Below, piece after piece: positions 1 through 5,517 of a stretch of 43,522 nucleotides of DNA. This DNA comes from Desulfovibrionaceae bacterium (GTDB taxonomy: Bacteria > Desulfobacterota > Desulfovibrionia > Desulfovibrionales > Desulfovibrionaceae): positions 1 through 43,522 of the forward strand of contig JAQXLA010000009.1 of NCBI GenBank assembly GCA_029011315.1, in the 5' to 3' direction. The position numbers were made by a program, and so were the translations under genes. Under the pieces are notes generated by a model that made no database searches, was not told the origin of the DNA, and saw only the letters and a program-made list of their open reading frames with translations. The number at the start of each line of letters is the position of its first letter. The stretch's first letter is position 1.

Positions 1-1806
1 GAACGCGTCGCCATCGAGGCGGCCAAGGCCGGATTCAACGTCATCTGCCTGAGCATCGTTCCCCCGAGGCGTTCGCATTCCTGCTGCGCCCAGGGCGGCA
101 TGCAGGCTGCTCTCGGCAACTCCATCATGGGCGATGGCGACTGTCCCGAAATCCATTTCAACGACACGGTCAAGGGCTCCGACTGGGGCTGTGACCAGGA
201 AGTGGCCCGTATCTTCGCGAAAACGGCCCCCATCGCCATGCGCGAAATGGCCTTCCTCGGCTGCCCCTGGAACCGCGTCGTTCCCGGCGAGCACACCTAC
301 TTCAAGGGCGGCAAGCCCTTCCAAGCCACGGAAAAGGCCGAAAATGAAGGCCTCATCCACTCCCGCGCCTTCGGCGGAACGGCCAAATGGCGTACCTGCT
401 ACACGTCGGACGGAACCGGACACGAAGTGCTGTACACCCTCGACAACAGAGCCATCCAGCTTGGCGTCACCGTGCATGACCGCATGCAGGCCGAAGCCCT
501 CATCCACGATGGCGATCAGTGCATGGGCTGCGTCGCCCGTGACCTGCGCACCGGCGAACTCGTCGGATACTTCGCCAAGGCCACGCTCATCGCCACCGGC
601 GGCTACGGCCGTATCTACCGTGCCACCACGAACTCCGTTATCTGCGACGGCGGCGGACACATCATCGCCCTTGATACCGGCATCGTTCCTCTCGGCAACA
701 TGGAAGCCGTTCAGTTCCATCCCACCGGCACGGTGCCCACTGACATTCTCGTGACCGAAGGCTGCCGCGGCGATGGCGGCACCCTCCTCGACAAGAATGA
801 ATACCGCTTCATGCCCGACTATGAGCCGGAGAAGGCCGAGCTGGCCTCCCGTGACGTCGTCTCCCGCCGCATGACCGAACACATGCGCAAGGGCTTCGGC
901 GTCAAGAGCCCTTACGGCGAACACCTCTGGCTTGATATCCGCCATCTCGGCGAAAAGCACATCAAGACCAACCTCCGTGAAGTCTACGATATCTGCACCT
1001 GCTTCCTCGGCGTGGATCCGGTGACCCAGCTCATCCCTGTCCGTCCCACCCAGCACTACAGCATGGGCGGCATCCGGACCAACAAGGACGGTGCTGTCTA
1101 CGGCATGAAGGGCCTCTTCTCCAACGGCGAATCCGCCTGCTGGGATATGCACGGCTTCAACCGTCTGGGCGGCAACTCCCTGGCGGAAACGATCGTTGCC
1201 GGCCGCATCGTCGGTAAGAAGGTCGTTGAATTCCTGCAGGGCTATGAAGTGGCCTTTAAGACGGCTGCCATGACCGACGCCGCCAAGAAGGTGCAGGCTC
1301 GCATTGAAAGCCTCAAGCACGGTAGCGAAAACTGCTTCGAGCTGCGTGACGCTCTCCAGGAAACCATGATGGAACATGTCGGCATCTTCCGTAATGGAAA
1401 AGACCTGCAGGCTGGCGTTGACAAGCTTCAGGAACTGCTGGAACGCTCCAAGAACATCGGCCTTACCGGTGGCTTCGTGAAGGGCTTCACTCCTGAAATG
1501 TCCACGGCTCTGCGCGTTCCCGGCATGATCAAGCTGGCTCTGTGCTCCGCTTACGGTGCTCTGAAGCGTACGGAAAGCCGCGGTGCTCATACCCGTGAAG
1601 ACTTCCCCGCTCGCGACGATGCCAAGTGGTTGAAGCGTACGCTCGCTCAGTGGAAGGAAGGCGACACCCTTCCGACCCTTAGCTACGAAGAAGTTTCTCC
1701 GTGGTTTGAATTGCCTCCTGGAGACCGTGGTTACGGCGGCGGCAAGATCATTCCCGGTGAAATCCCGGCTGAAAAGATGCGCCCCTTCGGCGGCAAGAAG
1801 GCCTAG
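1..1806 (+). CDS. frdA: Fumarate reductase (or succinate dehydrogenase) flavoprotein subunit, 5' partial
   Basis: FAD-binding catalytic subunit that interconverts fumarate and succinate at the membrane. The reading frame is open from base 1, so the start and the dinucleotide-binding glycines lie outside the window. The RSHS...AQGGMQ motif that carries the covalent-FAD histidine in this family is at 67-102, with His at 76-78; two cysteines follow where Wolinella has alanines. QFHPTG is at 712-729, HYSMGG at 1054-1071 and GFNRLGGNS at 1153-1179, and the C-terminal ESRGAHTREDFP block is present. The whole sequence resembles Wolinella/Helicobacter FrdA rather than E. coli FrdA, so a cytochrome b subunit FrdC is expected upstream (inference). 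frdB follows after 71 bases. Alanine codons change from almost all GCC to mostly GCT along the gene. Sequence alone cannot fix the direction of the reaction. Confidence 0.95.
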   Translation, partial: ERVAIEAAKAGFNVICLSIVPPRRSHSCCAQGGMQAALGNSIMGDGDCPEIHFNDTVKGSDWGCDQEVARIFAKTAPIAMREMAFLGCPWNRVVPGEHTYFKGGKPFQATEKAENEGLIHSRAFGGTAKWRTCYTSDGTGHEVLYTLDNRAIQLGVTVHDRMQAEALIHDGDQCMGCVARDLRTGELVGYFAKATLIATGGYGRIYRATTNSVICDGGGHIIALDTGIVPLGNMEAVQFHPTGTVPTDILVTEGCRGDGGTLLDKNEYRFMPDYEPEKAELASRDVVSRRMTEHMRKGFGVKSPYGEHLWLDIRHLGEKHIKTNLREVYDICTCFLGVDPVTQLIPVRPTQHYSMGGIRTNKDGAVYGMKGLFSNGESACWDMHGFNRLGGNSLAETIVAGRIVGKKVVEFLQGYEVAFKTAAMTDAAKKVQARIESLKHGSENCFELRDALQETMMEHVGIFRNGKDLQAGVDKLQELLERSKNIGLTGGFVKGFTPEMSTALRVPGMIKLALCSAYGALKRTESRGAHTREDFPARDDAKWLKRTLAQWKEGDTLPTLSYEEVSPWFELPPGDRGYGGGKIIPGEIPAEKMRPFGGKKA

Positions 1807-2766: not shown

Positions 2767-4092
2767 ATGCGCAGAATTATCGGTGGCTTTTTGATTTCCG
2801 GATTGACGTGTGCCATTTTTTCCGTTTTGCCGGCCTATGCAGAAACGGAATCGGTTCAGCCGAAAACAGCTTCTCAGAATATGGCAGGCAATTCCCGCTT
2901 TGAGGCCTTGAAGAGGTTTAGTCAGGTGCTTGACATCGTTGAGCGCTATTACGTCTCTGAAACAGACCGTGCCGATTTGGTTCAAGGAGCCTTAAAAGGC
3001 ATGCTGCAGCATCTTGATCCCCATTCCACATTACTGAGTTCCGATGAATTTCGTGAAATGCGGGAAACGACTTCCGGGGAATTTTTTGGTATTGGCATTG
3101 AAATCACCATGGAAAACGGGCAATTGACTGTTGTGACGCCGATAGAGGATACCCCCGCAGACAGGGCTGGCCTGAAAGCCGGTGATTCTATTTTAATGAT
3201 TAACGGCAACGCGACGCTGTATATGTCTCTTCAGGAAGCCGTAAGCCAGATCCGTGGAAAGAAGGGAACGGATGTGGAATTGACGGTTCTGCATAAAGAC
3301 GGAGGGGAGCCTTTGACCGTCAGAATCAAGCGAGATTCCATTCCCATGATAAGCGTTAAATCCATGGAACTTGAAGAAGGGTATCATTGGGTTCGTATCA
3401 CTCGTTTTAGCGAAAAAACGACGCAGGAACTGCATGATGCCTTGAAAAAAGCCGCAGCTCATCGAGAAATCAGGGGAATTATTCTGGATTTGCGCAATAA
3501 TCCCGGGGGATTGCTGGATCAGGCTGTCAGCGTTACCGATACATTTCTTTCATCCGGAACGATTGTGTCCATCAAAGGCCGCTCCAGCATGAATGTTCGA
3601 GATTTTATGGCTCAGGAACAGCCTTCAGATATTAAGGCACCGATGGTTGTGCTTGTTAATTCCGGATCCGCTTCAGCTTCGGAAATCGTTGCCGGAGCTC
3701 TGAGAGACAGGAACAGAGCACTTCTTGCGGGGGAAAAGACTTTTGGCAAGGGATCTGTGCAAAATGTTATCCCTCTCTCGGACGGGTCGGGGCTGAAGCT
3801 GACGGTGGCTCGGTATTATACTCCTTCCGGACGGTGTATTCAGGCTGAAGGCATCGAACCTGATTTTATTGTTCCGTTTGAGACAGGAACAGACAATAAA
3901 AAGGATAGTGACGGAATTCGGCTGCGGGAGAAAGATTTGACGCATCATCTGGATGCTTCCGGGCAGAAAGCTGACGGATTGAAAAAAAGTATGCCTACGG
4001 GGGATGCCGCTCGAGCTTTGCAAAAGGATAATCAGCTTCGCATTGGTCTTCAGCTGGTAAAAACCATGCCGCGCATGCGGACTTTGCGATAA
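2767..4092 (+). CDS. ctpA: C-terminal processing peptidase (S41 family, PDZ domain)
   Basis: Periplasmic serine protease of the CtpA/Prc family; 441 residues. Residues 1-25 form a signal peptide ending in AYA. A PDZ domain covers about 103-190 (GIGIEI..., with RAGLKAGDSILMING). The S41 core follows, with DLRNNPGG at 241-248, the serine-nucleophile motif GSASASE at 300-306 and the general-base lysine in FGKG (Lys328), so the Ser-Lys dyad looks intact. The start follows AGGAGG-like bases at 2757-2761. The YibQ-like gene starts three bases after the stop, so the two are co-transcribed. The same pairing of a CtpA-type protease with a divergent deacetylase is common near cell-wall hydrolase regulators, but the substrate is not known here. 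Confidence 0.93.
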   Translation: MRRIIGGFLISGLTCAIFSVLPAYAETESVQPKTASQNMAGNSRFEALKRFSQVLDIVERYYVSETDRADLVQGALKGMLQHLDPHSTLLSSDEFREMRETTSGEFFGIGIEITMENGQLTVVTPIEDTPADRAGLKAGDSILMINGNATLYMSLQEAVSQIRGKKGTDVELTVLHKDGGEPLTVRIKRDSIPMISVKSMELEEGYHWVRITRFSEKTTQELHDALKKAAAHREIRGIILDLRNNPGGLLDQAVSVTDTFLSSGTIVSIKGRSSMNVRDFMAQEQPSDIKAPMVVLVNSGSASASEIVAGALRDRNRALLAGEKTFGKGSVQNVIPLSDGSGLKLTVARYYTPSGRCIQAEGIEPDFIVPFETGTDNKKDSDGIRLREKDLTHHLDASGQKADGLKKSMPTGDAARALQKDNQLRIGLQLVKTMPRMRTLR

Positions 4093-4095
4093 TTT

Positions 4096-5517
4096 ATGGC
4101 AAAGAAAAGAAATCCTCCACCGCTTAGATCTGCAGATGCTCCTCGAGAAAAAGGCCCTGTGGAATGGTTGTGGTCTCGTGTTTCATTTCGTCCCTATCCG
4201 TATACGCGCAGAACTCTGACTGGTTCTTTTTGCATAACGCTGATTTTGGGATTGCTGTGGGGAGGAGTCCTGATCAGCTGGCGTTCTCTGTCATTGAACA
4301 TTGGCATTTCAGAGCAGTGCTATCTGTATATTCAGGCATTGCTTTGGCCGGATAAGGTGCGGCAAGACGAAATAGAAATACCGCTGCCTGTGTTTTCATC
4401 GGTTGATCCTTCTTCAGGCAACATGATCGAAGATGAAGTGGTGCAGCCGATCGTGACGGATAAGCTGGAGACGTATTTGATACCATTTTCCGAAACAGTG
4501 AACCCAGAATTGACAGATTTGGAAAAACGGGCTGATTTTGCCATATGGCAGGTTTTAAAGCGTTTTCGCATTTCGTCTTCAGCCGTTATGCCAATACAAA
4601 CCGTGCGCAGAGTCGATGGCGAGTCAGCATGGATGTTTCAGCGTATGAGAATCATGATTCCTGTACCAGTACGGCAATTTGTAGCCGCTGTGCGGGAAAG
4701 CCTTGAGGCATGGGCTGAAGGCGTAAATATGGAATATGAAAATGGTGAGATTCGTCTTTTATTCGGCTCACGTCTTGCCCGTATCCATGTTTTGGATTGC
4801 GCTTCTTCCGTGAATATGCCTGATGTCTTGCCGACATCGCCGAAGATGGTTGTTGTGCTGGAAAAAATCGGCACGGATCCGGACATGATAGCAAAAGCCT
4901 GTTCACTGGGTATTCCATTTACAGCGGCTGTTCTTCCGTCTGAAAAATATGCGCAGCAGGCTGCTTCTCTGCTTTATGAAAAAGGATGGGAAATTCTGAT
5001 TCAACAGCCGATGCAGTCTTCACAGTTTCCGGCTTTGCAGAAGGACTCTGATATGTGTCTGACAGTCGAGATGCAGGAAAACGAGATGCGAGATGTTCTT
5101 CAGAAGTCTCTCCGGCTTGTGCCACATGCATCCGGTCTGTACGGTACTGCTTCCAAGGTGACAGGTCATGCCCCGGCAGCTTCCAGACTGAGTCAGGCCG
5201 CTTCGGATCTTGGTTGCTTCGTGATCGATACGGATGTTTCTAGAAAATCTTTTCTTTATAACGAAGCAAGAATGCAAGGTATTTCGGTTTTTCGCATTGG
5301 TGAAAAGCTGGATGCTGGCTTGCATCCTACGGCAGAGAGTATTTTGAAAAATCTTCAGAAGGCAGAGCTGAGAGCTTTACAGGGGGAAACGGTGATTGTG
5401 GGGTGCAGGATTTCGGAACACGCTCTGGAGGCTTTGCGTCGTTGGATTCCTGCACGGCATGCTGATATTTCCTGTGTTCCTTTCCGTGCAGCCGGATATT
5501 TTTCCGATCTCAATTAA
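4096..5517 (+). CDS. Divergent polysaccharide deacetylase (YibQ-like), metal ligands lost
   Basis: 473 residues. It has a short basic N-terminus, one membrane segment at about 41-62, a middle region of unknown fold, and a C-terminal domain from about 248 that aligns along its length with the YibQ/PF04748 family. In that family the metal and active-site motifs read IDDxG, HLPM, NNHMGS, FLDS and GHPH (recalled from E. coli YibQ). Here the matching stretches read LEKIG, QQPM, YGTASK, VIDT and GCRI, so essentially every expected ligand is replaced while the spacing of the fold is kept. It is probably a membrane-anchored periplasmic protein acting as a scaffold or regulator with CtpA rather than as an enzyme (inference). 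It is translated three bases after ctpA and followed by a bidirectional terminator. Confidence 0.8.
   Translation: MAKKRNPPPLRSADAPREKGPVEWLWSRVSFRPYPYTRRTLTGSFCITLILGLLWGGVLISWRSLSLNIGISEQCYLYIQALLWPDKVRQDEIEIPLPVFSSVDPSSGNMIEDEVVQPIVTDKLETYLIPFSETVNPELTDLEKRADFAIWQVLKRFRISSSAVMPIQTVRRVDGESAWMFQRMRIMIPVPVRQFVAAVRESLEAWAEGVNMEYENGEIRLLFGSRLARIHVLDCASSVNMPDVLPTSPKMVVVLEKIGTDPDMIAKACSLGIPFTAAVLPSEKYAQQAASLLYEKGWEILIQQPMQSSQFPALQKDSDMCLTVEMQENEMRDVLQKSLRLVPHASGLYGTASKVTGHAPAASRLSQAASDLGCFVIDTDVSRKSFLYNEARMQGISVFRIGEKLDAGLHPTAESILKNLQKAELRALQGETVIVGCRISEHALEALRRWIPARHADISCVPFRAAGYFSDLN

Follow-up and report, generated by a model that had tools for sequence, protein, structure and literature searches.

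The open reading frame directly downstream of ctpA in the window, a stretch of 43,522 nucleotides that makes up contig 9 of the 1.485 Mb genome of a Desulfovibrionaceae bacterium, probably encodes an orthologue of SddA (YibQ) that has turned into a pseudoenzyme and is kept for binding or scaffolding at the septal peptidoglycan. The protein is homologous to SddA, its gene sits in the operon position of sddA, its catalytic residues are lost, and a pair of ligand-poor copies in the neighbouring genus g12 is under evident constraint. The gene order in the window is frdA - frdB - ctpA - ORF 4096-5517 - argJ, with argJ on the minus strand and with frdB and argJ named from the sequence. The frame is open and starts 3 nt past the ctpA stop, the gap given in an earlier note on this DNA, and the genome has no other PF04748 copy (Table 1). 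The frdA frame (window positions 100-1806) begins at profile position 47 of the FAD-binding domain; probably the contig end truncates the start of the gene, or else the start is in a different frame.

Table 1. Features of the ctpA-sddA locus in the window; residue numbers are those of the window protein unless assigned to E. coli SddA.
Feature	Position	Strand	Basis
ctpA, S41 carboxy-terminal processing protease	2767..4092	+	TIGR00225 342.8 bits, PF03572, PDZ; GSASASE and GEKTFGKGS motifs
sddA (yibQ) orthologue, probable pseudoenzyme, 473 aa	4096..5517	+	PF04748 108.6 bits
Long hydrophobic helix 38-68, probable membrane anchor	4207..4299	+	AF2 helix; sequence reading
Juxtamembrane domain 137-234, helix-2 strands-helix-3 strands	4504..4797	+	Alignment; model pLDDT 88
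PF04748 deacetylase-fold domain 253-463	4852..5484	+	Profile; model; structure matches
E256 K257, replacing zinc ligands D31 D32 of E. coli SddA	4861..4866	+	Alignment
Q303, replacing zinc ligand H78	5002..5004	+	Alignment
Y349 G350 T351 A352, NNHMG motif with the zinc-ligand His (H123) deleted	5140..5151	+	Alignment
D378, Asp of the LDS motif, kept in 6/6 damaged copies	5227..5229	+	Alignment
D406, equivalent of E. coli D179, kept in the window	5311..5313	+	Alignment
C437, replacing the invariant His of GHP (E. coli H209)	5404..5406	+	Alignment

The C-terminal domain belongs to PF04748 from end to end, as had been claimed, with residues 253-463 matching profile positions 1-208 of 212; the score is 108.6 bits, where the cut-off is 27.5. 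It is preceded by a short, basic N-terminus, the helix 38-68, a low-confidence linker and a small domain (137-234) that is conserved in Desulfovibrionales SddA, with D147, Q182 and H231 kept in the window. A Pfam search matched this juxtamembrane domain to no family. Its structure matches were weak and to common arrangements (best Z 8.3), and a fold assignment was dropped. The same domain is also present in some Desulfobacterales SddA, with near-invariant Asp and TH motifs.

The motifs were compared by aligning the window protein with 203 other PF04748 copies, with 196 intact copies as the reference, among which five positions are essentially invariant as D, D, H, H and H. Judged on this alignment, the motif loss in the window protein is far beyond chance. 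The earlier note had read four motifs as replaced with the spacing of the fold kept. Two of these replacements are seen in the alignment as described, IDDxG having become LEKIG (255-259) and GHP having become GCR (436-438). The NNHMGS motif is indeed lost (349-353), but it reads Y-G, a one-residue deletion, then TAS, and this single deletion is the one place where the spacing is not kept. At QQPM (303-306) the His is gone as stated, but the change amounts to H to Q only, the relatives in the genus already having HQPM.

An AF2 model built with 57 homologues gave a pLDDT of mostly 90-98 over the PF04748 domain. The best structure matches were 2NLY (BH1492; Z 28.6, 1.8 A over 211 residues) and 2QV5 (Atu2773; Z 26.2), with the CE4 enzymes well below at Z 13-19. 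The deacetylase beta/alpha-barrel fold is thus predicted to be kept in the window protein; with canonical homologues making up the alignment, the model establishes compatibility of the sequence with this fold and no more. Two of the checks proposed in the earlier note, alignment with PF04748 members and structure prediction, came out in its favour, the fold matching 2NLY and 2QV5 and the alignment showing the ligands to be absent from the window protein. With the catalytic and metal residues gone, a fold model that fits and an intact reading frame, its reading of the protein as a pseudoenzyme appears sound.

Loss of the ligands is rare and local. We surveyed 132 genomes from 54 genera, taking the PF04748 copies by profile search and not by motif. 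The ligand state is DDHHH in 125 of the 132 copies; one more reads DDHH and is cut off before the last His, and six deviate, namely the window (EKQ-C), G001 (NGAHN), G003 (HEHHQ), G014 and G054 (both TGHFQ) and G103 (TDW-R). These six are confined to two genera, the window's own genus g1 (the window and two congeners) and the neighbouring g12 (three species). The damaged copies are also set apart by the 25 positions conserved at 95% or above, of which intact copies keep 22-25 and damaged ones 6-16, so that the classes do not overlap. The first Asp and the GHP His are lost in all six, while H78 and H123 persist in some; G014 and G054, for example, are without D31, D32, H123 and H209 and keep H78. 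This pattern suggests that the catalytic residues were lost first and the His ligands later. Lawsonia intracellularis PHE/MN1-00, a gut bacterium that the genome taxonomy used here places in g1, has its ligands intact, which implies at least two losses if loss is irreversible. The ctpA tree recovers g12 as a clade but gives weak placements for the window, G001 and G002, and it does not fix how many independent losses there were. The sddA of G103 (L222:705-2192, minus strand) is a 496-codon open frame (68.5 bits) that keeps 6 of 24 invariant positions and is even more diverged than that of the window.

One explanation of such copies is non-functional decay, with the gene on its way to loss in a reduced genome and the open frame being a recent remnant. 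No copies in the survey are more diverged than those of the window and of G103 (111 and 71 bits, respectively), and many g40 genomes have dropped sddA entirely, both of which would fit this explanation. Decay is also given room by the scope of the dN/dS estimates, which cover the pair G014-G054 (g12) and active pairs of other genera, with the window's own branch outside: a species-genome scan with the window protein found no close relative, g1 consists of four genomes only, and the nearest relatives are 28-34% identical over the aligned stretches. However, all six damaged copies are open frames with no internal stops. The window frame is open over 473 codons, and simulated random substitution at 0.25 per site leaves no gene stop-free. 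The structural invariants P281, P305, G347 and D378 are retained in the window. Several of the ligand replacements take two substitutions or a deletion, and the loss is therefore not a very recent one. Most directly, the PF04748 domain of the G014-G054 pair has a dN/dS of 0.064 (bootstrap 0.036-0.107; dS 0.73, dN 0.047), next to 0.057 for the N-terminal domain, 0.072 for ctpA and 0.064-0.144 for the domain in active pairs of other genera. This ligand-poor domain is therefore as constrained as active copies and under strong purifying selection, which means that selection is able to preserve an SddA without catalysis. The selection on a dead copy that the earlier note had supposed is thus found in this g12 pair. 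For the window itself, the open frame and the retention of D147, Q182 and H231 in the N-terminal domain and of D378 and D406 in the PF04748 domain are indirect signs of it. For G103 against G014/G054, dN/dS is 0.54-0.56 for sddA and 0.18-0.19 for ctpA, but at 33% identity these values are saturated and unreliable. On balance, we consider decay rather unlikely.

What a maintained but inactive SddA could do is best approached from E. coli, where SddA is a septal enzyme that removes acetyl groups from the GlcNAc of denuded strands and whose overproduction blocks the septal amidases (PMC12440217). Substitution of D31 and D32 (D31A/D32A), of H78 (H78A) or of H123 (H123A) abolishes activity in each case, while D179A keeps activity and loses localisation and inhibition (PMC12440217). 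With hits of 1e-61 to 1e-175, a profile for EnvC built from ten operon copies found the protein in seven relatives; it matched the M23 part only, at 1e-11 to 1e-18, in 15 genomes, which comprise all of g1 and g12 and the tested members of g39, g40, g42 and g4. FtsX follows the same pattern, with matches of 1e-78 or better from eight genomes and no match from these 15; it was likewise not found in G020, which is incomplete and EnvC-positive, or in G040, and G006 is an incomplete assembly. EnvC and FtsX make up the partner pathway to which SddA is genetically linked in E. coli. The EnvC match beside the intact sddA of G038 (C5:170644-171912) holds three stop codons, and this envC may be broken or mis-assembled.

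Two simple causes for the loss of catalysis were rejected. Loss of the substrate machinery does not apply, as the window genome keeps one Amidase_3 protein with readable catalytic motifs (GHGG, VHIN, EAGY) and one SPOR protein, so denuded strands are probably still made. EnvC loss alone does not account for it either, since the copies in g39, g40 and g42 are without EnvC and yet catalytically intact; EnvC loss is thus not sufficient for the loss of catalysis. The window genome has a single M23 peptidase (G000:C10:49943-50227, L237), against 2-8 in the tested relatives, L. intracellularis with 5 among them.

We favour a second, non-catalytic job in cell division, which the damaged SddA probably has. 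In the course of events that we think likely, the first step would have been the loss of the FtsEX-EnvC pathway of amidase activation, in a wider clade whose SddA is still active. The Lawsonia lineage and its neighbour would then no longer have required catalysis, and their active site would have eroded stepwise while the non-catalytic function was retained. The window protein would be membrane-anchored, remaining in the inner membrane, would reach the septal peptidoglycan via the kept D406, and would act not by deacetylation but by binding, either directly or by way of the juxtamembrane domain, to denuded glycan strands or to a division or peptidoglycan partner. Several points weigh against this. 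By analogy, the H123A protein of E. coli may argue against a binding role: having lost both activity and amidase inhibition, this dead protein neither inhibits the amidase nor causes chaining (PMC12440217). The D406 position is Asn in G001 and G103, so a contact of the D179 type would not be kept throughout, and the H78 retained in G014 and G054 also sits uneasily with the proposal. In addition, the gene is dispensable in the family, as its loss from many g40 genomes indicates. A more specific version, in which SddA after the loss of FtsEX-EnvC would have become a membrane-anchored, non-catalytic reader of denuded strands (or of the remaining amidase, the SPOR protein or CtpA) that controls septal splitting spatially, is offered as a speculation that we think unlikely. 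Either way, these genomes raise the issue of how septal amidases are controlled where FtsEX-EnvC is not detected.

Another potential explanation is that the active site has been rebuilt or altered, such that residues like E256, D378, D406 and C437 would carry a metal or some other chemistry and the protein would still be an enzyme. The strong constraint on the domain in g12, the presence of D378 in all six damaged copies, and the H, E, H and H of G003 at the four zinc-ligand positions could be taken in this sense, as could MdaA, a CE4 enzyme that has Cys for the metal-binding Asp and is still active (PMC10838918). However, at the level of sequence the replacing residues differ by lineage (EKQ-C, NGAHN, HEHHQ, TGHFQ and TDW-R), and with no shared pattern among them no common rebuilt site is seen. 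In the window, moreover, K257 stands where a metal ligand belongs, and the GHP His is also lost. A rebuilt enzyme thus seems improbable.

The neighbourhood of ctpA is of interest because the earlier note had proposed that the pseudoenzyme serves the protease. Across the order, the genes commonly stand as envC - ctpA - sddA (envC - sddA in E. coli), and P. aeruginosa has the same arrangement, envC-ctpA-PA5135 (PMC12569750). The operon envC-ctpA-sddA is ancestral, and the adjacency of ctpA and sddA is common to active copies; it is therefore older than the loss of catalysis. In the window, frdB and no envC lies upstream of ctpA. All 15 genomes that were tested and gave no sddA domain keep CtpA, which consequently does not need SddA, and 12 of them have sddA cleanly absent beside ctpA; of the others, G006 has the N-terminal part of an sddA cut by the contig end, and G057 and G142 have too little flanking sequence. 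At five g40 loci (L257, L260, L263, L265 and L266), a proC-like ORF directly follows ctpA in the place of sddA, a clean loss. Known adaptors of CtpA and Prc, of the LbcA and NlpI type, are lipoproteins with TPR repeats. A Pfam search of the window protein returned PF04748 only, and a reading of its sequence found no lipobox. That SddA would be an adaptor or regulatory subunit of CtpA, with which it is paired 3 nt apart and stays paired after envC has gone, is thus very unlikely, given an adjacency that is ancestral and shared with active copies, the persistence of CtpA in 15/15 genomes without the domain, the want of TPR or lipoprotein features in the window protein, and the published data by which E. 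coli SddA is a likely substrate of the CtpA-type protease Prc (PMC12569750).

An SddA turned pseudoenzyme and kept for binding at the septum can be compared with several known systems. With E. coli SddA the window protein shares the family, an operon context by descent (envC-(ctpA)-sddA) and the equivalent of D179. It differs from it in the loss of all four zinc ligands and the GHP His, in having an extra membrane anchor and the juxtamembrane domain, and in a genome where EnvC and FtsX are not detected. It is in effect the reverse of D179A, with D406 present and the catalytic residues gone. BH1492 of Bacillus halodurans (2NLY) is its best structural match and, unlike the window protein, has an intact zinc site. 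Among deacetylase-fold proteins outside the family, the CE4 proteins BA3943 (PDB 7BKF), BA0330 and BA0331 of Bacillus are similarly without activity, and the latter two have cell-wall roles (PMC4505593). Unlike the window protein, these are NodB/CE4 proteins of independent origin, and their roles may differ. MdaA of Agrobacterium was set aside as a comparison, being a NodB protein and not a member of PF04748.

The closest parallel is Atu2773 of Agrobacterium tumefaciens (2QV5), which has the PF04748 fold and motifs from which the zinc ligands are absent, and which the authors of the SddA work proposed to be an inactive, regulatory SddA (PMC12440217). Unlike the window protein, it is alphaproteobacterial, represents an independent loss, is still in an envC operon and has other replacing residues. 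Zinc-ligand loss in a PF04748 protein is thus already on record. What is new is a second group, in the Desulfovibrionaceae, with graded losses, evidence that selection acts on a pair poor in ligands, and an association with a clade that gives no detected FtsEX-EnvC. From L. intracellularis (intact) through G003, G001 and G014/G054 (partly eroded) to G103 (nearly) and the window (fully eroded), these copies form a graded natural series that separates an enzymatic from a non-enzymatic role of SddA, the question already raised for Atu2773.
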